DNA of 64,000 bases from Malaciobacter marinus (GTDB taxonomy: Bacteria > Campylobacterota > Campylobacteria > Campylobacterales > Arcobacteraceae): NCBI RefSeq assembly GCF_003544855.1, contig NZ_CP032101.1, positions 1,488,001 through 1,552,000 of the forward strand, in the 5' to 3' direction. Below are positions 11,095 through 22,523 of the stretch, in pieces. Both the position numbers and the translations under genes were made by a program. Position 1 is the stretch's first letter, and each line of letters opens with the position of its first letter. The notes under the pieces are model-generated. The model ran no database searches and had not been told where the DNA came from. It saw only the letters and a program-made list of their open reading frames with translations.

Positions 11095-12363
11095 ATGAAA
11101 GCTTTTGTAATATCTGCTATTGCATCAAATCAAGGTAAAACTATTTTAACTACTGCATTACTTTATAATTACAGAAAAAGTGTGCGTCCTTTCAAAATAG
11201 GTCCAGATTATATAGACCCACAATTTCATAAAACTATTTGTGATACAAATTCAATAAATCTTGATACTTTTATGATGAATAAATCTCAAGTCAAATGGAT
11301 TTTTAATAAATATAACAATAAAGATATTTGTATTGTTGAGGGTGTAATGGGTTTTTATGATGGAATGGACAAAGCTTGTTCTGCTTATGATGTTTCAAAA
11401 CTTTTAAAAATACCTACTATTTTAATTCTTGATGCTAGTGGATCTTATATAACTATTAGTGCAGTTTTGAAAGGATTAAAAACTTATAAAAAAGACAATA
11501 CAATCAAAGCAATTGTATTAAATAATATTTCATCAAGTATGCATTATGAGTTAATAAAAAGACAAGTAAATGAAGATTTTGATGATATTGAAATTTTAGG
11601 ATGGATAGAAAAAAATCTTCCTTGCTTAAAAGATACACACTTAGGACTTGATTTAAATGATGCAAAAAAAGACACTTTACAAAAGCTATCAAAAGAAGTT
11701 TTAAAACATATAGATTTAGAAAAACTTCAAAAGATTTCAGTTTATACAAAAAAGAAAAATAATAATTATCCCTTTGAAAAAATTGAAAAAGTAAATAAAA
11801 AAGCAACTATTATAAAAGATGGGAATTTTTCATTTTTATATTATGATAACTTGAAAGTTTTAAAAGAGCTTTTCAATAAAGTGGAAATAGTTAACCCCAG
11901 TAAAGATGAACAAATAAGCAAAGATTCAGATTTTGTATATATCTTAGGGGGCTATATTGAAACACAAAAAGCATATGATAAGATTAAGAATTCAAAGAAT
12001 TTTAAAGACTCTTTATTAAGACATGTTAAAGATAAAAGGTACGTTTATGCTGAATGTGCTGGATTATTATTTCTTTCAAAAAATGTTGATGATAAGAAAA
12101 TGATGAATATTTTAGATGTTAGTTTTACCCTTACAAATAAAAGAAATCGATTAGGTTATTATTATAATCAAAAGGGATTAAAAGGTCATGCTTTTCACTA
12201 TACAAAACCAATTGATACTAAAAATGCAATTGATATTTTAAGCAAAAAAAAGAATTCTAAAGGAGAGTTTGGAGCTTGGAAAAAAGAGAATGTATATGGC
12301 ACATATTTACATACAATGTTTAGAAATAATTTAAATATATTGAAGGATTACTTTGGAATTTAA
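11095..12363 (+). CDS. cbiA: Cobyrinic acid a,c-diamide synthase
   Basis: A 422-residue glutamine amidotransferase. The P-loop SNQGKTILTT (11-20), PFKIGPDYIDPQFH and the later class I glutaminase motif YAECAGLLFLS with nucleophile C321 define CbiA/CobB, which amidates side chains a and c of cob(II)yrinate. The length is a little under typical (about 460). It opens the rightward corrin operon, with AAGAGG before the ATG. The stop overlaps the start region of cbiC. Confidence 0.9.
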   Translation: MKAFVISAIASNQGKTILTTALLYNYRKSVRPFKIGPDYIDPQFHKTICDTNSINLDTFMMNKSQVKWIFNKYNNKDICIVEGVMGFYDGMDKACSAYDVSKLLKIPTILILDASGSYITISAVLKGLKTYKKDNTIKAIVLNNISSSMHYELIKRQVNEDFDDIEILGWIEKNLPCLKDTHLGLDLNDAKKDTLQKLSKEVLKHIDLEKLQKISVYTKKKNNNYPFEKIEKVNKKATIIKDGNFSFLYYDNLKVLKELFNKVEIVNPSKDEQISKDSDFVYILGGYIETQKAYDKIKNSKNFKDSLLRHVKDKRYVYAECAGLLFLSKNVDDKKMMNILDVSFTLTNKRNRLGYYYNQKGLKGHAFHYTKPIDTKNAIDILSKKKNSKGEFGAWKKENVYGTYLHTMFRNNLNILKDYFGI

Positions 12364-13063
12364 AATGGAACAACCACCTATAAATTTAGGTGCAGATATC
12401 TCAAATAAATCATTTGAAATAATAAACAATGAACTAAAAGATTATGAAAAAATAGATGAGTTTACAAAAGAGCAACAAGAGGTAATAAGTAGATTAATTC
12501 ATACAACTACTTGCTTTGATGAAGTACTAAATAATATCTATTTTTCAAAAGATTCTATTAAAAAAGTACAAACATTGCTTTTAAATGAAGCAAAAATAAT
12601 AGTTGATGTAAATATGATAAAAGTTGGGCTTAGTGATTTTTACTTAAAAAAGTATGACAATGAAGTTATTTGTTATATAAATGAGTCTTTTACTTATGAA
12701 AATGCACAAAAAAATAAAACCACAAGAAGTTATGCAGCTGTAGTTGAAGCTATTAAAAGACATAAAGACAAACCACTAGTTCTTGTTTGTGGGAATGCTC
12801 CTACATTTATTTATGCAGCTATTAATACTTTAATAGAGCAAAAAGTAGATTTAAACAATGTTGCTTTATTACTATTTCCAGTTGGATTTGTAAATGTAGT
12901 TGAATCAAAAGCTTATGCAAGAAAATTTTGCGATACTTTTAATGTAGCTGGAATTATTATGCAAGGAAGATTTGGAAGTTCAACTATGAGTGTAGCCACA
13001 CTTCATGCTATTTATAAACTAATAAAAGATTATGATAAGGATGATAAATATAATGGAAAATAA
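12353..13063 (+). CDS. cbiC: Cobalt-precorrin-8 methylmutase
   Basis: CbiC moves the methyl group from C11 to C12 to give cobyrinic acid. The catalytic His is H50 in RLIHTTTCF, and LVCGNAPTFIYAA and LLFPVGFVNVVESK are family motifs. The TTG at 12353 is chosen because AAGGA lies five bases upstream; ATG at 12365 (giving MEQPPINLG) is the alternative with a weak RBS. The gene overlaps cbiA by 11 bases. Product 236 residues, slightly longer than CbiC of Salmonella (210), the extra being N-terminal. Confidence 0.9.
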   Translation: MEFKMEQPPINLGADISNKSFEIINNELKDYEKIDEFTKEQQEVISRLIHTTTCFDEVLNNIYFSKDSIKKVQTLLLNEAKIIVDVNMIKVGLSDFYLKKYDNEVICYINESFTYENAQKNKTTRSYAAVVEAIKRHKDKPLVLVCGNAPTFIYAAINTLIEQKVDLNNVALLLFPVGFVNVVESKAYARKFCDTFNVAGIIMQGRFGSSTMSVATLHAIYKLIKDYDKDDKYNGK

Positions 13064-13514
13064 AAAGCTATTTAATGCAATGGGAAGTGAAGTTGCTGAT
13101 GGTTTTACATGCAAACCAAAAAATTTTGATGCAAATAAGCCAATAATGCACTTAAAAACACAACTTTTTATTTGTGATGATGAAAGATGTGGAAAAGCTC
13201 ATAAAGATGAAAATATCGCTGCAACATTAAGAGAAGTATTAAAAGAGTTAAATCTATCAAAAGGAAAAGATAGAATCAAAATAGTTAGAACAGGATGTTT
13301 TGGAGCTTGTAGATTTAGAAGTGTTGCAAATATTTATGAAAATACTAAAATCAATGGGAATATTAATAACAATGGAATTTGGCTTAAAAATATTCATAAA
13401 TATGATAAAGATAAATGGAAAAGACTTTTTATTTCATTAAAAGAAAATAGAAATATTGATGAAATTGATGAGTTTGAACAAGTACCAATGAGTGATCCAA
13501 GTTTTTATAAATGA
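13053..13514 (+). CDS. Thioredoxin-like [2Fe-2S] protein of the B12 operon
   Basis: A 153-residue soluble protein, start taken as ATG 13053 (in-frame ATGs at 13032 and 13041 are possible; the frame overlaps cbiC). Four cysteines are arranged as C-x4-C (ICDDERCGKAH) and C-x3-C (TGCFGACRFR), the pattern of thioredoxin-fold [2Fe-2S] ferredoxins. The C-terminal part is charged. It lies between cbiC and cbiD in a gapless operon, so an electron-transfer or reductive role in corrin synthesis is likely, for example at the CbiJ or cobalt reduction step. Exact role unknown. Confidence 0.7.
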   Translation: MENKKLFNAMGSEVADGFTCKPKNFDANKPIMHLKTQLFICDDERCGKAHKDENIAATLREVLKELNLSKGKDRIKIVRTGCFGACRFRSVANIYENTKINGNINNNGIWLKNIHKYDKDKWKRLFISLKENRNIDEIDEFEQVPMSDPSFYK

Positions 13515-14536
13515 GAAACCAAAAAGTTTTAAGAAAAGGCTATACAACAGGTACACACACTGTTGCATCATTTAGAAGTTGTTTAGATACATTGCTTGTT
13601 ACAAATAAAGCGTGTATTACAAAAACAACAAAAATTGATAATGATGACTTAGATGTAACAAAAGGTTGTGAGATTATTGTAAGTTTAGACTTTTCTATTG
13701 AAAATTTTTTATTAAATCCTACATTTCAAAAAGCACAACTATTTAAATGTGAAACAAATAGTTTGGAAATTTATGCAGGAATTGGAGTTGGAGTAGTTAC
13801 AAAAAAAGGTTTAAAAGTTCCACCACCCTACCCAGCAATCAATCCTGCTCCTTTAAATGCGATACAAGACTATTTTAAGATAAAAACAAACAAGAGACAA
13901 CACTTACATTTAAAATGTTGTATAAGTGTTGTAAATGGACAAGAAATAGCTAAACAAACAGCTAATGCAAAAGTTGGTGTTCTTGAGGGTATTTCAATAT
14001 TAGGAACAACAGGAGTTGTAAAACCTGTTTCAAGTTCTGCTTATATTGATTCAGTTAAAACACAAATAGAGTTTGCCATACAAAATAGATATGAAACTAT
14101 CTATTTTACACTAGGTAATTCTGCTTTTAATATAGCTTGTTCAAAAGCAAATAAAGAAGCAATTATTGAAATAGGTAATTTTGTATATGATTCTATTGAA
14201 GTAGCAACAAATCAAAATGCAAAAGAAGTGATATTTTTATGTGGAATTGGGAAAATGACAAAAGTCTATCAAGGTTTTAAAAATACACATAATAGATTTG
14301 GTGTGATTGATTTTGATAAATTACAAGCTGATATAAAAAGAAATCTTAATTATGAAGTGGATATAGAAGCTACTTTAACCGTAAAAGGAATATCTCAAGA
14401 ACTTGAAAAAGCAGGTTTAGTAAAAGAGTTTTATGAGATGATAACATTAAAAGCAAATAAACAAATAAAAAAGTGGTTTAAAACTTCAAATGTAAAAGCC
14501 ATAATATTAGAAGAAAAAGAGGTTTTAGGATGGTAA
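13511..14536 (+). CDS. cbiD: Cobalt-precorrin-5B C1-methyltransferase
   Basis: A 341-residue CbiD. The hallmark LRKGYTTGTHTVAS near the N-terminus and GNSAFNIA, FLCGIGKMTKV in the second half are seen. CbiD is specific to the anaerobic pathway and methylates C1 during ring contraction. It overlaps the preceding gene by four bases and the next by seven. Typical length is about 360-380, so it is compact but complete. Confidence 0.9.
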   Translation: MRNQKVLRKGYTTGTHTVASFRSCLDTLLVTNKACITKTTKIDNDDLDVTKGCEIIVSLDFSIENFLLNPTFQKAQLFKCETNSLEIYAGIGVGVVTKKGLKVPPPYPAINPAPLNAIQDYFKIKTNKRQHLHLKCCISVVNGQEIAKQTANAKVGVLEGISILGTTGVVKPVSSSAYIDSVKTQIEFAIQNRYETIYFTLGNSAFNIACSKANKEAIIEIGNFVYDSIEVATNQNAKEVIFLCGIGKMTKVYQGFKNTHNRFGVIDFDKLQADIKRNLNYEVDIEATLTVKGISQELEKAGLVKEFYEMITLKANKQIKKWFKTSNVKAIILEEKEVLGW

Positions 14537-15693
14537 CTATTGCAGGAAATGGAATGGGAGAGTATGATTTTTCAAATCTTGATTTTGATATATCAAAATT
14601 TGATAAAGTTATTTGTGATTTAAATTTTTTAGAAGACGGTAAAAATATTCTAAAATTAAAATACAAACAAGCAAAAGAGTATATTTTGCAAAACTATGAA
14701 AAAGAAGAGATTTTATATGTAGTAACTGGTTCACCTTTATTTTATAGTGCAGGAACTATTATTGCAAAAAATTTACCAAAAAATAAAGTAAAAATCATAA
14801 ACAACACATCTTCAAAAAGCTATTTGTTAGAAAAACTATTTATTAGTGAAACAGATGTAAATACAATATCTTTACATGGAAGAGTTGATATTGATTTAAC
14901 TAAATTTTTACAAAATAAATATACTTTTATACTTTGTGATAAATCTACTATCTCAAGATTAAAAACTGCCCTATGCTATTTTGAAGCAAACTCTATTTCT
15001 ACTATACTTGGATATAAACTTGGATTTAATGAAGAGAAAATTGAAAAAATTGATTTATTAAATTTTGATGAGCATTTACTTGATTTAACAGCTCCTTTTG
15101 TTTTACTTATTAAAAAAGAGTTTAAAAATAAAAATATAATTAGTGAAGATATTGAGTTTGAAACACAAAGAGGAATGATTACAAAAAAATACAAAAGACA
15201 ACTTACTTTACAAAATCTAGATTTACAAGCAAATAATCTACTGTGGGATATTGGTGCAGGAAGTGGAAGTTGCGCAATAGAAGCTTTTAAAAGATATAAA
15301 GTAAAAACAATACTTTTTGAAAAAAATGAAACAAGAATAGATTTTATAAAACAGAATTTAAAAAATCATTATGTAATTGATACAAAACTTTTAAGTGGAG
15401 AAGCACAAGTTCTCTTTCAAACACTTAAAGAGACACCTCAAAGGATATTTGTAGGAGGTGGAGGAATTGAGGTTATAAAACAACTTCCAAAACTTTATGA
15501 AATATTAGATGAAAAAGGGATTTTATTGATAAATGCAATTACCTTAAAACATCTAAATCTTATGCTAACTGTTTTAAATGAAGCAAAGATTGAATATGAA
15601 GTTTACTCTATCTCTCTTACAACATATAAAGGTAAACTTGATTTAGTAGAGCCTGAAAGACAATTATTTCAAATAAAGGTAAATAAAAAATGA
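14530..15693 (+). CDS. cbiET: Fused cobalt-precorrin-7 C5-methyltransferase / C15-methyltransferase-decarboxylase
   Basis: A 387-residue fusion. The N-terminal half (about 1-195) is a CbiE methylase starting VTIAGNGMG with YVVTGSPLFYSAG. The C-terminal half (about 210-387) is CbiT: GMITKKYKRQLTL then the SAM motif LWDIGAGSGSCAIEAF. The enzyme methylates C5 and C15 and decarboxylates the C12 acetate side chain, as CobL does in the aerobic route. The fusion is common in this group. Coupled at both ends to cbiD and cbiF by overlaps. Confidence 0.9.
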   Translation: MVTIAGNGMGEYDFSNLDFDISKFDKVICDLNFLEDGKNILKLKYKQAKEYILQNYEKEEILYVVTGSPLFYSAGTIIAKNLPKNKVKIINNTSSKSYLLEKLFISETDVNTISLHGRVDIDLTKFLQNKYTFILCDKSTISRLKTALCYFEANSISTILGYKLGFNEEKIEKIDLLNFDEHLLDLTAPFVLLIKKEFKNKNIISEDIEFETQRGMITKKYKRQLTLQNLDLQANNLLWDIGAGSGSCAIEAFKRYKVKTILFEKNETRIDFIKQNLKNHYVIDTKLLSGEAQVLFQTLKETPQRIFVGGGGIEVIKQLPKLYEILDEKGILLINAITLKHLNLMLTVLNEAKIEYEVYSISLTTYKGKLDLVEPERQLFQIKVNKK

Positions 15694-16436
15694 TATATTT
15701 TATAGGTGCTGGATGTGGAGATCCAGATTTAGTTACAGTAAAAGCACAAAAAATACTTCAAAAAGCTGATGCTGTTTTATATACTGGTTCATTAGTTCCA
15801 AAAGAGGTTCTTTCTTGGTGCAAAGCTGATGCAATTATAGAAGATTCTCAAGGTATGAAATATCCTGAGATTTTTGCTTTTTTAAAAAAGCAAAAAGATA
15901 AAGTTGTAGCAAGAGTTCATACAGGCGATCCTTCTATTTACTCAACTATTGCAAAACAGATTGAGTTTTTACAAAAAGAAAATATATCATATGAAGTAAT
16001 ACCAGGAATTACAGCTGCTTTTGGAGCAGCTGCTAGTTTAGGAATTGAATATACAATTCCAGGAGTTTCACAAACCATGATTTTAACAAGAGTTGAAGGA
16101 AAAACACCAAATCCTGAAAGTCTTGAGAATATATTAGCTTGTAAAAACTCTTCGTTGGTATTTTATTTATCTATTTTACTTCTTGAAAAATTAAAGAAAA
16201 AAGCTTTGAAGTTAGGATATAGCAAAGATACACCTTGTTGGGTAGTTGAAAAAGCAACATGGAAAGAAGAACAAATTTTCAAAGGAACAATTTCAAATAT
16301 ACAAGAACAAGTATCTCATATAAAAGGTGTAGCACTAATTCTTTTGGGAGATTTTTTAAAACAAGAAGAGACTCAAGAATCACATTTGTATGTAAAACCA
16401 CTAGTTAAAGAGTTAAAGGCAGACAATGAGCAATAA
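15690..16436 (+). CDS. cbiF: Cobalt-precorrin-4 C11-methyltransferase
   Basis: A 248-residue methylase with IYFIGAGCGDPDLVTVKAQKIL at the N-terminus (GAGxGD motif), VLYTGSLVPKEVL, RVHTGDPSIYS and YEVIPGITAAFGAAASLGIEYT, all diagnostic for CbiF/CobM. It methylates C11. Length matches Salmonella CbiF (257). Four-base overlap with cbiET and eleven-base overlap with cbiG. Confidence 0.92.
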   Translation: MIYFIGAGCGDPDLVTVKAQKILQKADAVLYTGSLVPKEVLSWCKADAIIEDSQGMKYPEIFAFLKKQKDKVVARVHTGDPSIYSTIAKQIEFLQKENISYEVIPGITAAFGAAASLGIEYTIPGVSQTMILTRVEGKTPNPESLENILACKNSSLVFYLSILLLEKLKKKALKLGYSKDTPCWVVEKATWKEEQIFKGTISNIQEQVSHIKGVALILLGDFLKQEETQESHLYVKPLVKELKADNEQ

Positions 16437-17445
16437 ACTAAAGATTGCAGTTGTATCAATAAATCAACCAAGTTTAAATAGTGCTTGTGAACTTTTAAAA
16501 TACTTAGATGATTTTGAAGTTGATGTATATGGTAAAAAAGATTTAAATCATAATCTTTCAAATCTTATAATCTATGAAAAAATAGATACTGTATTAGAAA
16601 ATGCTTGGAAAAAATATGATGCAATTATTTGTATTTTAGCTATGGGAATTGTTGTAAGAAAGATTGCTCCTTTTTTAAAAAATAAGGCTACAGATCCTGC
16701 AATTATTGTTATGAGTATGGATTTAAGTAAGATTATTCCTCTTTTAAGTGGTCATATTGGTGGAGCAAATGAACTAAGTGACTTAATTGCTTCAAGAATT
16801 AAAGGGTGTATAAATTTTATCTCAACTGCAACAGATCAAACAAATACTTTTGCTTTTGATATATTTGCAAAGAAAAATAACTTTGAAATACAAAACCTAC
16901 AATGTTTAGCAAAAATCTCAAATGCATTATTAAACAATAAAGAAGTTGAAGTTAAAACTTATAAAAGCATCTTTGAAACAATCCCTGATAAAACAAATTT
17001 AAAAAGAGTAGATGAACAAAGTTTAGAACTTTGTGTAAATATAACTCCATTTTCGAACAAGAATCTAACTTTAAAACCAAAAGTTTATCTAGGAATGGGT
17101 TGTAATAAAAATACAACTTTTCAAGAAATTGAAAAAGCCTTTTTGTGCTTTTTAGATAAATACAACTTAAGCAAACATCAAATAGAAAATATAGCTTCAT
17201 TTGAAGCAAAAGCTGATGAGGTAGGACTTTTAGAATTTGCTTCAAAATATAGTTTTGATATAAAATTTTATAACAAAGAGCAAATAAACTCACTTCAAGC
17301 AGATTTTTCTCCATCACAAGCAACAAAGTTTTTTAATTTAAAAGGTGTAGCTGAGCCATCAGCAATTTTACTTTCAAAATATAAAGAACTAATACTAAAA
17401 AAAGAAGTATATAATAAAAAAATAACAATCGCAGGAGCAATTTAA
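16426..17445 (+). CDS. cbiG: Cobalt-precorrin-5A hydrolase
   Basis: A 339-residue CbiG, which opens the delta-lactone with loss of acetaldehyde, a step only in the anaerobic route. AIICILAMGIVVRKIAPFL and LLSGHIGGANELSDLIA in the N-terminal half, and the C-terminal VYLGMGCNKNTTFQEIEKA followed by GVAEPSAIL, are the family's hallmarks. The start overlaps cbiF, and cbiH follows two bases after the stop. Confidence 0.92.
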   Translation: MSNKLKIAVVSINQPSLNSACELLKYLDDFEVDVYGKKDLNHNLSNLIIYEKIDTVLENAWKKYDAIICILAMGIVVRKIAPFLKNKATDPAIIVMSMDLSKIIPLLSGHIGGANELSDLIASRIKGCINFISTATDQTNTFAFDIFAKKNNFEIQNLQCLAKISNALLNNKEVEVKTYKSIFETIPDKTNLKRVDEQSLELCVNITPFSNKNLTLKPKVYLGMGCNKNTTFQEIEKAFLCFLDKYNLSKHQIENIASFEAKADEVGLLEFASKYSFDIKFYNKEQINSLQADFSPSQATKFFNLKGVAEPSAILLSKYKELILKKEVYNKKITIAGAI

Positions 17446-17447
17446 AT

Positions 17448-18233
17448 ATGGCAAAAAGATTATATATAGTAAGTTCAGGAGCAGGAGGAACTTCATATAT
17501 CACACCAGAAGCAACAAAAGCAATAGAAAATAGTGAAGTTATAGTCTCATATAGTAAATATGCACGAGAACTAAAAGAGTTATTAAAAGAAAAAGAAGTT
17601 TATACATCAGGTATGACACATGAAATACAAAGATGTAATCAAGCAATACAATATGCAAAAAGTGGAAAAACAACTTCAATCATCTCAAACGGAGATGTCA
17701 ATGTATATGGAATGGCAACATTAATTGTTGAAATAATGGATGAAAAAGATTTATGGGATGAAATTGAACTTATTTCACTTCCTGGAGTTACTTCTTTTTT
17801 AGCAGCAGCTAGTAAAGCAGGAGCTCCTGTATCTCAAGACTTTTCTATTATTTCATTATCAGATAGATTAACAGATATAAATTTAATAGATAAAAGAGTA
17901 AAAGCAGCACTTGAATGTGATTTTGTTCTAGGAATTTATAATCCAAAATCAAAAAAAAGAATTAAACCATATCAAAATTTCTTAAAAGCTTTAGAAAATG
18001 GATATGAAAATAGAATTACAATAATTGCTTCAAATGTAGGAAGAGTAGAAAAAGAAAAAATCACAATAACAACTGCACAAGATTTAATAAACAAAGATAT
18101 AGAACATGAAGCTGTTTCAATGTCAACACTTATTATAATTTGTAATTCAAATTCAAAATTAACAAAAAATAATCAAGTCCTAACTCCAAGGGGATATTTA
18201 AATAAATATGAACTTGATGGAGAATTAAAATAA
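17448..18233 (+). CDS. cbiH: Cobalt-precorrin-3 C17-methyltransferase
   Basis: A 261-residue methylase: LYIVSSGAGGTSYITPEA at the start, VIVSYSKYARELKELL, SGMTHEIQRCNQAI, ISNGDVNVYGMA and LPGVTSFLAAASKAGAPVSQDF identify CbiH/CobJ, which methylates C17 and contracts the ring. Last gene of the rightward corrin operon; followed by a strong hairpin. CbiJ (precorrin-6A reductase) does not follow and is not elsewhere in the window. Confidence 0.92.
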   Translation: MAKRLYIVSSGAGGTSYITPEATKAIENSEVIVSYSKYARELKELLKEKEVYTSGMTHEIQRCNQAIQYAKSGKTTSIISNGDVNVYGMATLIVEIMDEKDLWDEIELISLPGVTSFLAAASKAGAPVSQDFSIISLSDRLTDINLIDKRVKAALECDFVLGIYNPKSKKRIKPYQNFLKALENGYENRITIIASNVGRVEKEKITITTAQDLINKDIEHEAVSMSTLIIICNSNSKLTKNNQVLTPRGYLNKYELDGELK

Positions 18234-18240
18234 ATATTGC

Positions 18241-18269
18241 TATCTAAGAAAGTTAATCTTTCTTAGATA
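18241..18269. terminator. Bidirectional terminator between cbiH and the TauE/SafE-like gene
   Basis: A perfect 12-bp stem (18241-18252 with 18258-18269) closes a five-base loop. It lies eight bases past the cbiH stop and covers the stop of the convergent gene at 18263, so it can end both operons. Confidence 0.75.
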
Positions 18270-18973
18270 TGACAACTAAGTATTGTTTTTGTAGGATCTA
18301 CTATATATTCATATCCTAAATATGCAATATAAATCCCAAATCCAATAACAACAAGAGAGGCTATTTTTATCATGGTATTTCTTAATGCTGTTTGTTTAAA
18401 AATAGATACAAAAAAGCCTAAAGAAAAAAGTGCTGGAATTGTACTAAGTCCAAAAATCAACATTACAAATGCTCCCCACAAAGGACTTCCTGTACTTGCA
18501 GCTGTAATAGCAAAAACATATACAAAACCACATGGCAAAAGACCATTTAACATCCCTAAAAGATAAAAGCTAGTCAAAGAATCTGAACCAATTAATGATT
18601 TAAATGTTTTTTGATATAAAGGTGATTTTGAAACTGAATGTTCAAGATTTGTTAAGAACTTGATTTTCCCACTTAAAGAAAGACCAATTAGCACCATCAA
18701 AAATCCTGTAGTTAGTAGTAAAATACCACTTGTAAGATTATCAAAAGTAACTACTCCTCCAACATATCCAAAAATAAAGCCAAGTATTACATAAGTTGTT
18801 ATTCTTCCAAAAGAGTATAAAAGATGAGAAAGAGCTTGAAGTTGCTTACTCCATCCACTTTTTACCTTTGTGCTTGAATAAGCAACAACAATTCCACCAC
18901 ACATTCCAACACAGTGCCCAAAAGAGCCTAAAAAAGCAATTGTTATTATAGTTACTATACTTATTGTTTCCAT
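18263..18973 (-). CDS. TauE/SafE-like (UreH/DsbD-type) transmembrane protein
   Basis: A 236-residue membrane protein with about six helices. The N-terminal FLGSFGHCVGMCGGIVVAYSS holds the H-C-x3-C-G-G motif of the sulfite exporter TauE/SafE-type or DsbD-gamma-like family found near cytochrome oxidase and copper genes in Campylobacterota. The paired Cys and Met suit metal or thiol transfer across the inner membrane. It is the last gene of the leftward operon beginning at 22523 and starts at the stop of the NosL-like gene (shared base at 18973). Confidence 0.75.
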   Translation of the reverse strand: METISIVTIITIAFLGSFGHCVGMCGGIVVAYSSTKVKSGWSKQLQALSHLLYSFGRITTYVILGFIFGYVGGVVTFDNLTSGILLLTTGFLMVLIGLSLSGKIKFLTNLEHSVSKSPLYQKTFKSLIGSDSLTSFYLLGMLNGLLPCGFVYVFAITAASTGSPLWGAFVMLIFGLSTIPALFSLGFFVSIFKQTALRNTMIKIASLVVIGFGIYIAYLGYEYIVDPTKTILSCHI

Positions 18974-19476
18974 TATTTACCTAACAATTTTTGTTTTACA
19001 TATGGGTCAGTTAAGTTCTCACCTCTTAACATATATAAAAGCATTTGATTAAAATTTATAAAACCATCTTTTTTCTTTTCATATGCACCAAAACCATAAG
19101 ACATAGGTGTTTTTGATACTCTACTGTACCAAGCAGTTCTACCATCTATGTATTTATTTGTATCATGAGAATATACCCAAATTGTTGCTTCATCTTTAAA
19201 ATCAATATCTTTAAACCACAAAGCCATACAGCCAACATCATCAAAAAACCATGTTTTACCATCAGGAGATACAGCTTGTGCAGAGTTTTCTTTTGTTGTA
19301 ATAGTCATTCCACATTGTGTATCTTGAAAATGATTTAGTGTAATATCTATAGGTTTTTTTTCATGATTTCCACTATGAATTACCACCATCTTTTTTTGTT
19401 CACTCATTGATAAAAATATTGTTATAATTATTGCTATAACAACAAAAACGCTTAATATTGGTATTAATTTTTTCAT
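18973..19476 (-). CDS. NosL-like membrane-anchored periplasmic protein
   Basis: A 167-residue protein. ATG at 19476 is chosen; it overlaps the upstream stop as TAATG, whereas the longer frame from 19527 runs inside the neighbouring gene. An N-terminal membrane anchor (about 5-23) precedes a periplasmic domain with QCGM (C55-M57) and DDVGCMALW (C83-M84), matching the NosL pattern, a Cu(I) chaperone for nitrous oxide reductase. It lacks a lipoprotein cysteine at the usual place. Copper binding is inferred from the family; no nosZ is in the window. Confidence 0.65.
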   Translation of the reverse strand: MKKLIPILSVFVVIAIIITIFLSMSEQKKMVVIHSGNHEKKPIDITLNHFQDTQCGMTITTKENSAQAVSPDGKTWFFDDVGCMALWFKDIDFKDEATIWVYSHDTNKYIDGRTAWYSRVSKTPMSYGFGAYEKKKDGFINFNQMLLYMLRGENLTDPYVKQKLLGK

Positions 19477-20444
19477 TATAAAAATACTCCATTTTTTAAA
19501 TAGTAAATCCCAACATATAAAGTACAAATTAGTACAAAAATTGTATTAAATATTATTGAATATTTATATGTATAAGCCAACTCTTTTTTAATTAGAAATT
19601 TTAGCACAAAGGAACTTATTGCATAAAATACACCTAAAAACAACATACTCCATAATAAATACCCTATATAATAATACTCTTTTTGCAACATACAAAAAGG
19701 ACATTTATGAGTTGGAAGTTCATAAATATATGTTCCAAAGAACTCAACCACACTTAAATATGCAACATACAAAAAGATTATATTAACTACAAAACTAAGT
19801 AAAGCTTGTTTTGATATATTTGCCATGATATTCAATAAATAAAACAGATAAAAAAGTATCAATAACTTTGTTGTATCTAAACCTAAAGGAAGAGTGTTCT
19901 CTCCTTGTACACCAAATATCACAGAACAACAAAGCACAATCTCATCTAATGAAATATTTGTAAAATATAAAATATCTAAGATATACTCTATTAAAACAAG
20001 AAAAAATATAAACATAAAAAAATATAGTTTTATTTTTATATATGGGTAGTTTTTCTCTTTTAAATCCTCACTATTTACAATAATCCAAATAGAATTAAAA
20101 AACACTATAAAAACTTTTAAAGCAAGAAGCTTTACTCCATAATCATTTGCACTAATCACTCCTGCTGCACACATGGCTCCTGGAACAATATTTGATAAGT
20201 TATCAATAACATAAGCAAAATATGGAATCAATGCTATTTTTACAATTAGTGCAAAAAATATTATAAGCATTACTAAATAAGACTTCTTTTCTAAACTATA
20301 CTGTTTTGGTTTTGTACTATTAAAATCCCAATTCTTTACAATATCAAAAACCCAAAATAAAGCAAATACTTGCAATATTAAAAGTATAGTTTGTGATATA
20401 AGATAGATTATCACTTCATTTGATAATAAAACTTCATTAAACAT
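19476..20444 (-). CDS. Multi-pass membrane protein with conserved-looking cysteines (CPFC)
   Basis: A 322-residue protein with about eight hydrophobic segments. Cysteines stand out: C92 in VPGAMCAAG, C172-C173 in LCCSVIFG, and a C-x2-C in PTHKCPFCMLQ (C248, C251, flanked by His246 and Met252). The CxxC loop resembles those of DsbB/VKOR-like thiol oxidoreductases or of copper sites, but overall I do not recognise the family. It sits between an ABC ATPase gene and the NosL-like gene, so a role in copper or thiol delivery is plausible. Confidence 0.6.
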   Translation of the reverse strand: MFNEVLLSNEVIIYLISQTILLILQVFALFWVFDIVKNWDFNSTKPKQYSLEKKSYLVMLIIFFALIVKIALIPYFAYVIDNLSNIVPGAMCAAGVISANDYGVKLLALKVFIVFFNSIWIIVNSEDLKEKNYPYIKIKLYFFMFIFFLVLIEYILDILYFTNISLDEIVLCCSVIFGVQGENTLPLGLDTTKLLILFYLFYLLNIMANISKQALLSFVVNIIFLYVAYLSVVEFFGTYIYELPTHKCPFCMLQKEYYYIGYLLWSMLFLGVFYAISSFVLKFLIKKELAYTYKYSIIFNTIFVLICTLYVGIYYLKNGVFL

Positions 20445-21113
20445 TTAAACTATTTTTCCATCTTGCATATTTATAGTTTCAAATAAAACATTACTTTGTT
20501 CAAAAATAGAGTCATGAGTAGCTATAATAACTGTTTTTTTAAGCTTTTTAAAATCCTCTAGTAAAGATAAAAATTTTAAAGAGTTTTGTTTATCTAAATT
20601 TGCTGTTGGTTCATCAAAAAGTAAGATATTAGCATCACAAACTAAAGCCCTTGCTATTGCTACTCTTTGTTTTTCTCCTCCACTTAAATTTGATACAAAT
20701 TCATCTTTTTTATGTTTTATATTAGCTAAAGATAAGGCATGTATAACTTTTGCTTTTATTTCATCTTTAGAAAGATTTTGAACTATTAAAGGAGTCATTA
20801 CATTATGAAATACATTTAAACTATTTATCAAATTGAAATCTTGAAAAACATACCCTATTTTTTTGTTTCTAAATTTTGAAGCATGCAAATCAGGTAGTTT
20901 TGCAATATGCTCATCATCTACAATAACATCACCACTTGTAGGTTTTTGTAAACTTGAGATTATAGATAATAAAGTAGATTTTCCACTACCACTTACACCT
21001 TTTAAAAGAACAATTTGCTCTTTTGGAATAAATAAACTTACATTTTCAAGTGCGGTAAACTCATTTTTTCTATTTTGATTAAAGATTTTATAAAGATTTT
21101 TAACTTCTATCAT
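20445..21113 (-). CDS. ABC transporter ATPase, LolD/MacB type
   Basis: A 222-residue ATPase with Walker A GVSGSGKST, Q-loop GYVFQDFNL, signature NLSGGEKQRVAIARAL and Walker B ILLFDEPTANLD. The sequence pattern groups it with LolD/MacB/FtsE proteins that pair with FtsX/MacB-like permeases, which is what the next gene upstream encodes (overlap of four bases). The complex would work on envelope substrates by mechanotransmission rather than as a classical importer. Confidence 0.85.
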   Translation of the reverse strand: MIEVKNLYKIFNQNRKNEFTALENVSLFIPKEQIVLLKGVSGSGKSTLLSIISSLQKPTSGDVIVDDEHIAKLPDLHASKFRNKKIGYVFQDFNLINSLNVFHNVMTPLIVQNLSKDEIKAKVIHALSLANIKHKKDEFVSNLSGGEKQRVAIARALVCDANILLFDEPTANLDKQNSLKFLSLLEDFKKLKKTVIIATHDSIFEQSNVLFETINMQDGKIV

Positions 21114-22288
21114 TTTATACTCTTTATTACATCAACTGTAGCTATTTTCCACACAGGAATTAAAATTACACATAAAAATGGTACCACATAAAATATAAAC
21201 AAAGTTACAATTGAACCAAATGGTATATAAGGTGTTAATTCATAACTAAAATCTAAATTTGAAAAACCTAAAAATATTTGCATTAAAAAAGGTGCTTTTG
21301 TCACAAATATATAAATAAAAGATAAGATAATTCCAATACTAAAAGAGAAAAATGCAACTAAAAAGTTTTCGAAAACTTTTAGTTTTAATATATCTTTAAT
21401 ACTCCACCCTACTGCTTTAAGTATTGCTATCTCTTTTTTATCACTTGAATTTATCATAGAATATCTTTGATATAGTATTAGTAAAAATGTAAGAATAGCA
21501 ACAATATAAAGCACTAAAAAAAGTCCAGTTTTATAATTAAAAAGATTTAAATAGTATGATTTCATATCATCTTTTGAAATTACTCTTAAGTTATCATCTT
21601 TTAATATAATTTCTACTTTTGCATTTGCTCTTTCTAACTCATTAGGAACATTCAATGCAATATCAGAAGTTTTATACTCATCTACGCCTAAAACTATTTT
21701 TGCTAACTCTTTTGGTAAAATTATCATATCATTTGAAAGAAGTGAGGTTGTATCATCAAAAGCATCATAAATTTCAACTTCTATTGATTCACCTAAAGGT
21801 GTTGTAAAAAAATAACTCTTTTCATATTTAAACTTATCAAAAAGTTTTTTAACTCCACTTCCTATTATCATGTACTCTTTTTCTAAAAATTTTGACATAT
21901 CAAGTTTTTTAGATAATGTTTTTAGGTTTTTACTATTTTGCTCTTCAAAAAAATCTACTCCAACGATTGTAAAACTTTGTTTTAATGGTTTGAAAAAGTA
22001 CTTGCCATATACTCTTGAAGTTACATTTTTTACACCATAAATTTGTTCAATTTTTTCAATCAATGATAGATCAATATCAATAACTTCCCCTGCTTTCATT
22101 TTTTGAACTACAAAATCAGCTTGTGAATCTAATGTGTACTGAATATCTTTTGATAATGAAGTTGAGATAAACATCACAGAACTTAAAATAAAAACTAAAA
22201 TTATTGAGATGACAAATATAGAAAAGTGCTTACTTCTATGAATAAAAAGCATAAGAAATAAAAAACTATAAAAAGATTTATTTAACAT
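21110..22288 (-). CDS. FtsX/MacB-type ABC permease
   Basis: A 392-residue permease. ATG at 22288 (MLNKSFYSFL) is preferred over a longer frame from 22369 because the extra 27 residues lie inside the upstream small gene. One N-terminal helix (about 23-43), a long periplasmic domain (about 44-260) and three C-terminal helices give the MacB/FtsX topology; KKEIAILKAVGWSIKDIL is the typical coupling motif. Partner of the ATPase gene downstream. Substrate unknown; the operon suggests metal-centre maturation. Confidence 0.8.
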   Translation of the reverse strand: MLNKSFYSFLFLMLFIHRSKHFSIFVISIILVFILSSVMFISTSLSKDIQYTLDSQADFVVQKMKAGEVIDIDLSLIEKIEQIYGVKNVTSRVYGKYFFKPLKQSFTIVGVDFFEEQNSKNLKTLSKKLDMSKFLEKEYMIIGSGVKKLFDKFKYEKSYFFTTPLGESIEVEIYDAFDDTTSLLSNDMIILPKELAKIVLGVDEYKTSDIALNVPNELERANAKVEIILKDDNLRVISKDDMKSYYLNLFNYKTGLFLVLYIVAILTFLLILYQRYSMINSSDKKEIAILKAVGWSIKDILKLKVFENFLVAFFSFSIGIILSFIYIFVTKAPFLMQIFLGFSNLDFSYELTPYIPFGSIVTLFIFYVVPFLCVILIPVWKIATVDVIKSIK

Positions 22289-22523
22289 ATATGAAATCCA
22301 TGTGATTAGTACTTTTATGAAATAGATATGGTTTATTTTGAAGTTGAGAGTTATCTTCACTATAAGCATTGGAAAAAGATATTTTAAAGCTGTTTGTTAA
22401 TGATACCATGCTATTTAACTTATTGTATTTATCTTCTTTATTGTAAGAAAAGTCAAAATAGAAAATAAAACAAAATCCTAAAAAAATTGTAAAAAATATT
22501 GTAAAAAAAACTTTAAAAATCAT
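22278..22523 (-). CDS. Small membrane-anchored protein at head of NosL/ABC operon
   Basis: An 81-residue frame with an N-terminal hydrophobic anchor (about 2-24, rich in Phe) and a polar exported tail rich in Ser, Asn and Lys. It overlaps the permease gene by 11 bases (MDFIYVK-stop across ATGTTAAATAA), the usual sign of coupling. ATG start at 22523; RBS weak. No recognised family. A 10-bp hairpin with a U-rich run lies 33 bp upstream. Confidence 0.55.
   Translation of the reverse strand: MIFKVFFTIFFTIFLGFCFIFYFDFSYNKEDKYNKLNSMVSLTNSFKISFSNAYSEDNSQLQNKPYLFHKSTNHMDFIYVK

Follow-up and report, generated by a model that had tools for sequence, protein, structure and literature searches.

A compact operon of six genes on the minus strand of the Malaciobacter marinus genome, at positions 18263-22523 of the window analysed here (the whole 64,000-nucleotide stretch of NCBI RefSeq assembly GCF_003544855.1, contig NZ_CP032101.1, positions 1,488,001 to 1,552,000), is one that we judge, from sequence comparisons and with some reserve, to be an independent copy of a mobile gene module that helps to assemble respiratory enzymes containing copper, in this case separated from the genes of any client. 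At the core of the module lies a membrane protein with a CPFC motif (hereafter the CPFC protein), accompanied by an ATP-binding cassette (ABC) permease of the FtsX type, its ATPase and a NosL-like protein. A role in loading copper enzymes is proposed because relatives of the module sit inside two kinds of respiratory gene cluster, mcc and nos, of which the former encodes MccA, a haem-copper sulfite reductase. The preliminary description of this DNA had spoken of six tightly coupled genes, and all six open reading frames (ORFs) were recovered on the minus strand, abutting or overlapping with successive gaps of -11, -4, 0, -1 and -1 bp:

22278..22523, minus strand: small protein of 81 amino acids (aa) with one N-terminal transmembrane helix and the C-terminal motif DFIYVK (ORF)
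21110..22288, minus strand: FtsX/MacB-type ABC permease, 392 aa (PF02687, E 9.5e-13, 48.7 bits against a cut-off of 25.5)
20445..21113, minus strand: LolD/FtsE-like ABC ATPase, 222 aa (PF00005, ABC_tran, E 4.7e-36)
19476..20444, minus strand: CPFC protein, 322 aa, with eight predicted transmembrane helices and five invariant Cys (AlphaFold2 model, conservation and loop charges; no Pfam or NCBIfam family)
18973..19476, minus strand: NosL-like protein, 167 aa, with a transmembrane anchor, the CXM motif C55-G-M57 and FDDxGCM (hhalign and Foldseek)
18263..18973, minus strand: SafE/DsbD_2 membrane protein, 236 aa, with HCxxMCGG and LPCG motifs (PF13386, E 1.5e-48, 165.8 bits against a cut-off of 24.9)

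Distribution and gene neighbourhoods of the module

CPFC genes were found in 107 of 298 Campylobacterota genomes, in 126 copies, including 13 of the 21 genomes of the window's family, with that of M. halophilus (95% identical) as the closest named relative. Neighbourhoods were compared in 80 stretches, 79 of them picked around CPFC places out of the 126, and in a second set; the ORF picker gave no full CPFC ORF at L046 (a nos locus), L105 and L187-L189. The ATPase gene lies directly upstream of the CPFC gene in 76/79 cases in the first set and 38/44 in the second, and a NosL-type gene directly downstream in 46/79 and 23/44. Within five genes upstream there is a NosL-domain gene, often a double one (46/79 and 28/44), and within three genes downstream a SafE gene (10/79 and 22/44). 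This gene order is not due to chance.

The window operon has no such double-NosL gene upstream, and its genome (G000) carries one elsewhere, at G000:C1:918968-919942. There its neighbours in an operon-like run (G000:C1:918959-923815, L196:10960-15816; PF05573 twice in the NosL gene) encode the permease and ATPase of an ABC transporter, a periplasmic binding protein and a 'heavy-metal chelation' protein (DUF364/DUF4213). The run may specify an importer of metal chelates that delivers to the NosL domains.

One subtype of the module occurs in mcc clusters, in which it is preceded by genes for a cytochrome of about 700 aa with seven CXXCH motifs and then a 4Fe-4S protein, NrfD, CcsBA and Sel1 proteins; it stands after the CcsBA haem lyase gene and before a thioredoxin-like gene. 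The cytochrome is MccA, in one genome 100% identical over 690 aa to the crystallised MccA 4rkm, and in the genome encoding 4rkm the module comes after mccA/C/D/ccsA1-type genes. Genomes were sorted by MccA into 48 with a 'close' protein (identity of 64% or more) and 39 with distant homologues, nearly all 46-53% identical. A CPFC gene is present in 48/48 close-MccA genomes, and in 47 of these the module lies 9.4-13.3 kb downstream of mccA, the remaining MccA being at a contig end. In the CPFC tree a 19-row set that holds all 16 mcc-labelled rows forms one branch (SH-like approximate likelihood ratio, SH-aLRT, 90). The accessory genes after mccABCD-ccsA1, which we take to be those lettered mccH to mccL (with the product name MccL), run in the genome of 4rkm in the same order as in the window: small transmembrane protein, FtsX, ATPase, CPFC and NosL-like protein. 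The window operon differs from them in having no mccA in its genome and no double-NosL or Sel1 gene, in the addition of SafE and in keeping CXM. In one genome (G056; L141, L078), where no MccA match was found, transposase-like genes and a shortened mccC-like gene stand in place of the mccA end of the mcc cluster, while the module further downstream has stayed intact. The distant homologues of L199-L226 (seven CXXCH, C399/C495, no CX15CH) are paired with a six-haem partner of about 690 aa in a separate octahaem system that lacks the ABC module.

In several genomes (L056, L073, L088, L098, L107) the module lies inside a nos cluster, and 15 of the 126 CPFC copies, from 14 genomes, are within 20 kb of nosZ. 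Across the phylum 68 genomes have both CPFC and nosZ, 39 CPFC only, 21 nosZ only and 170 neither (Fisher p 3e-21, phylogeny ignored); weak NosZ matches of G146, G165, G176, G191, G285, G288 and G295 were not counted, and the split nosZ of G167 and G238 were. Because the 'nos' label is scattered over the CPFC tree with 16 changes, the sequences suggest that the module was recruited to nos clusters repeatedly. A five-gene set has been published from a nos cluster, two of its genes named, in the accessible part of that account, as an ABC permease and an ATP-binding protein, and it is very probably the same module as that occupying the small/FtsX/ATPase/CPFC/NosL-like slot of L073. Nos-linked CPFC proteins such as those of G248, G206 and G209 belong to a subfamily B that is 34-38% identical to the window's protein and sits inside nos, whereas the window's stands alone. 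At the Arcobacter-type loci L180, L183 and L184, a B-type module has NosL-like and SafE genes beside it in opposite orientation, and in L180 genes for NosY and NosZ come after it.

Beyond the Campylobacterota, three Krumholzibacteriota metagenome-assembled genomes (MAGs) and one further bacterium have copies of the module at about 50% identity, and all four genomes carry nosZ (nosZ was checked for 23 of the 47 loci from this wider homologue search). A Desulfosarcina MAG (L185:261-8432) encodes a CPFC protein 29% identical, together with two NosL-domain stretches and an ATPase, with two genes for COX2-type cupredoxins a short way downstream; no FtsX was found at this locus. Between CPFC and the cupredoxin genes lies one unassigned gene. 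Of the two cupredoxin products, one is a membrane protein with COX2-cupredoxin and Fer4_5 and the other combines COX2-cupredoxin with cytochrome c, and together they make an unusual CuA-type system. A literature search whose coverage excludes most subscription journals returned no title or abstract on the CPFC/FtsX/NosL module or its function.

Parts of the operon

The CPFC protein belongs to no family that we could name: neither queried alone nor through 38 relatives did it give a convincing Pfam or NCBIfam match, and no PDB sequence matched. An AlphaFold2 model built with 38 sequences (mean predicted local distance difference test score, pLDDT, 88.6) contains eight long helices, and Foldseek returned nothing against the PDB at E<=0.001. 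Looser fold matches (COX3 and designed proteins among them) cover chiefly residues 1-166, where they share a commonplace helical bundle, and were not accepted as kinship; DsbB or VKOR was not returned by the sequence and fold searches, which used the whole protein as query. The cysteines at C92, C172, C173, C248 and C251, whose positions had been read correctly from this one sequence, are invariant together with H246 in 79/79 relatives and again in 38/38 of another set of sequences. Loop charges (mean K+R per loop 0 to 1.6 outside vs 1.1 to 3.4 inside) make it likely that the N-terminus, C92, CC172-173, the CPFC motif with the H246 loop and the C-terminus face the periplasm, a topology that is likely rather than proven because the two ranges overlap.

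The protein encoded next to it is of the NosL type by profile, modelled fold and CXM motif. Alignment by hhalign to 15 canonical NosL gave a probability of 100 and E 2.9e-39, and a Foldseek search with its AlphaFold2 model found at E<=0.001 just four chains, all of them NosL from NosDFYL (7znq, 7osf, 7osg and 7osj; TM-scores 0.55-0.68). The family profile PF05573 (NosL) detects it poorly (E 0.098, 13.4 bits against a cut-off of 24), reaches E<=0.01 in 4/24 of its relatives and scores only 25.1 bits on the genome's own NosL; a PDB sequence search gave chance matches only. CXM (C55/M57) is invariant in 24/24 relatives, and 4/24 have G in place of the second Cys (FDDxGC). Within the mcc-linked group, both motifs are kept at L049, L051, L052 and L070 (G165 and three members of the window's genus); the others keep only the first Cys of CXM. 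CXM is the Cu(I)-binding motif proposed for NosL by Bennett et al. (PMC6530538), according to the accessible part of that paper. The protein has a plain transmembrane anchor and no lipobox Cys (none in residues 1-30), and we therefore call it NosL-like rather than NosL.

Among the remaining parts, the FtsX permease most likely starts at 22288 and not at 22369, a choice made from 392-aa relatives. Both ABC subunits score under the equivalog cut-offs tested (LolD 185 vs 308 bits, FtsE 195 vs 265, LolCE 28 vs 362, and MacB likewise). Small proteins encoded at the corresponding place in relatives terminate in motifs like [DE]F[VI]Y[VG]K, and the Cys of the SafE/DsbD_2 protein are invariant in 10/10 relatives. 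Upstream of the operon lies a divergent haloacid dehalogenase (HAD) hydrolase gene, and cobalamin biosynthesis genes (CbiG-like, CobJ/CbiH-like and others; window 11095-18233) converge on its end from the opposite strand. A viral scan confirmed 0/29 candidate stretches.

Possible clients and competing explanations

No client gene adjoins the window operon. The preliminary description had it without nosZ and with no denitrification enzyme nearby, which is correct for the window and misleading for the genome, which contains an entire nos cluster about 730 kb from the operon (nosZ at G000:C1:2236006-2237802) with its own NosD, NosF, NosY and NosL. A cbb3 oxidase (ccoN) is also encoded, and searches of the genome gave no MccA match, no PF07732 oxidase or NirK and no CuA COX2 except NosZ's own domain; among the copper enzymes tested, NosZ and cbb3 are thus the only ones. 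Window-type (A1) modules were assigned by hand from their neighbourhoods in 23 genomes (G218 is counted here, despite an FtsX of the mcc group and a CPFC placed beside the mcc branch); nosZ is present in 12 of these, MccA with its own module copy in two, and neither in nine. Our first guess for the client in this species is NosZ, served in trans. Relatives keep the operon without nosZ, so NosZ is a possible client here and not everywhere, and another client must exist in those relatives.

The narrower idea of a dedicated in-trans nosZ helper, left behind when the nos cluster split, fits the presence of nosZ in this genome and in 12/23 window-type genomes as well as the window-type copies inside nos clusters of several genomes. 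The nos cluster of the window's genome, however, has a full complement of NosL, NosD, NosF and NosY, and the five Malaciobacter-clade rows of the tree divide into two with nosZ (G000, G241) and three without (G207, G256 and M. halophilus), so that we regard such a helper as possible but the less likely case. The survey against nosZ that the preliminary description had called for shows that the module also occurs without nosZ: 39 of the 107 CPFC genomes have no nosZ, and 27 of the 39 also have no close MccA; M. halophilus, too, gave no nosZ match. Strict dependence on nosZ was rejected on these grounds.

Several observations weigh against a copper-loading module in general. Among nosZ genomes, 21/89 lack CPFC; 65/126 CPFC copies are near neither nosZ nor mccA; and within the window's own family the presence of CPFC shows no association with that of nosZ (5/8/2/6 genomes with both, CPFC only, nosZ only and neither; p 0.66), M. 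halophilus with its 95% identical gene giving no nosZ match. Of the 16 mcc-linked operons in the alignment, 12 encode a NosL-like protein that retains neither the M of CXM nor the second Cys (GCM). Had the module tracked copper, the distant MccA homologues would be expected to have lost C399 and C495, which we take to be the copper ligands of MccA, and this expectation failed, as 20/20 of those examined keep both. CPFC is present in only 5/39 of the genomes concerned (34 lack it) and the FtsX/CPFC/NosL genes were seen in 0/8 neighbourhoods of distant homologues, so octahaem enzymes with these cysteines can manage without the module. What does set the two classes apart is the eighth haem site CX15CH, found in 12/12 close MccA and 0/20 distant homologues.

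Since that haem site separates the classes and the copper cysteines do not, a thiol or haem-site role is a live rival. The module would then be a thiol-disulfide redox machine, DsbB- or CcdA-like, for disulfides or haem-ligating Cys of periplasmic respiratory enzymes, with copper incidental. Beyond the tracking of CX15CH, against the distant homologues that come mostly from CPFC-free genomes, this draws on the five invariant and predicted periplasmic cysteines of the CPFC protein, CPxC among them, on the DsbD_2 family membership of SafE, and on the CcsBA haem lyase and thioredoxin-like genes that flank the module in mcc clusters. It would also suit the lack of DsbA and DsbB in Arcobacter genomes described in the accessible part of a review (PMC4460558). 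Replacement of a missing general DsbB was rejected, as CPFC is carried by just 13 of the 21 members of the window's family; copper is also favoured by the CXM-bearing partner of NosL type, and we consider the redox machine unlikely overall.

Copper delivery to cbb3 oxidase specifically is less probable still. In the nine window-type genomes with neither nosZ nor close MccA, ccoN is always present, 7/9 have no PF07732 match and 0/9 a COX2 match, so that by exclusion an oxidase client is possible where cbb3 is the sole copper enzyme found. Yet 183 ccoN genomes have no CPFC and four CPFC genomes have no ccoN match, so that the general assignment 'for oxidases' suggested in the preliminary description is not supported, and the C. 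jejuni assembly account (CcoG/I/S/H, PCuAC and Sco; PMC8267372) mentions neither NosL nor an ABC transporter in its accessible part. Simple co-occurrence with cbb3 was discarded as a test because ccoN is in 286/298 genomes. Lowest of all we place the reading, very improbable in our view, that the operon is a common MacB/Lol-type system exporting a peptide or a lipoprotein and that its copper-like neighbours are there by chance: an FtsX permease and LolD/FtsE-like ATPase are indeed shared with MacB, LolCDE and FtsEX systems, but the window operon lies below all their equivalog cut-offs and has a single permease and other partners, and the module has its ATPase gene coupled to CPFC for 76/79 CPFC genes and recurs in nos and mcc clusters.

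A possible mechanism and its implications

If the operon is an assembly module for copper enzymes, the closest analogy is NosDFY with NosL in CuZ assembly, which likewise joins an ABC ATPase and permease to a NosL-type Cu(I) chaperone; the window operon differs in its FtsX-type permease, in having no NosD and in the five-Cys membrane protein in its place. In type VII ABC machines and in NosDFY, ATP presumably drives the movement of periplasmic parts. By the same token, the FtsX permease and ATPase would pump no solute and would spend ATP on moving periplasmic parts: hydrolysis would shift the periplasmic domain of FtsX, whereupon the CPFC and NosL-like proteins might use their thiols to exchange Cu(I) (alternatively a Cu-sulfur or Cu-thiolate unit) and to pass it to the apo-enzyme. 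SafE could conduct electrons through the membrane as the source of reducing equivalents, with the small protein perhaps a structural partner. The anatomy fits this scheme, in which we infer every copper-handling step. The 'uncharacterised copper/thiol delivery machine' of the preliminary description is supported by the same kind of reasoning, from the NosL fold, CXM, five invariant and predicted periplasmic thiols and the place of the module in nos and mcc clusters.

More speculatively, and with considerable doubt, the CPFC family might represent a novel class of membrane chaperone for metal or sulfur, in which an ATP-driven FtsX machine with an eight-helix core and five outer thiols builds and inserts a Cu-thiolate or Cu-sulfide unit, shared by CuZ, the MccA haem-Cu site, CuA-type proteins and at least one further client in genomes, including relatives of the window's, that have none of these. 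How periplasmic copper sites are supplied (CuZ and the MccA haem-copper site, with sulfur too for CuZ) is an unsettled question, for which the CPFC protein, found in 48/48 close-MccA and 68/89 nosZ genomes, is a concrete candidate factor. The stand-alone copies imply clients so far unrecognised, and if the nosZ of marine Arcobacter relatives and Sulfurospirillum depends on the module, it would have a bearing on N2O reduction.

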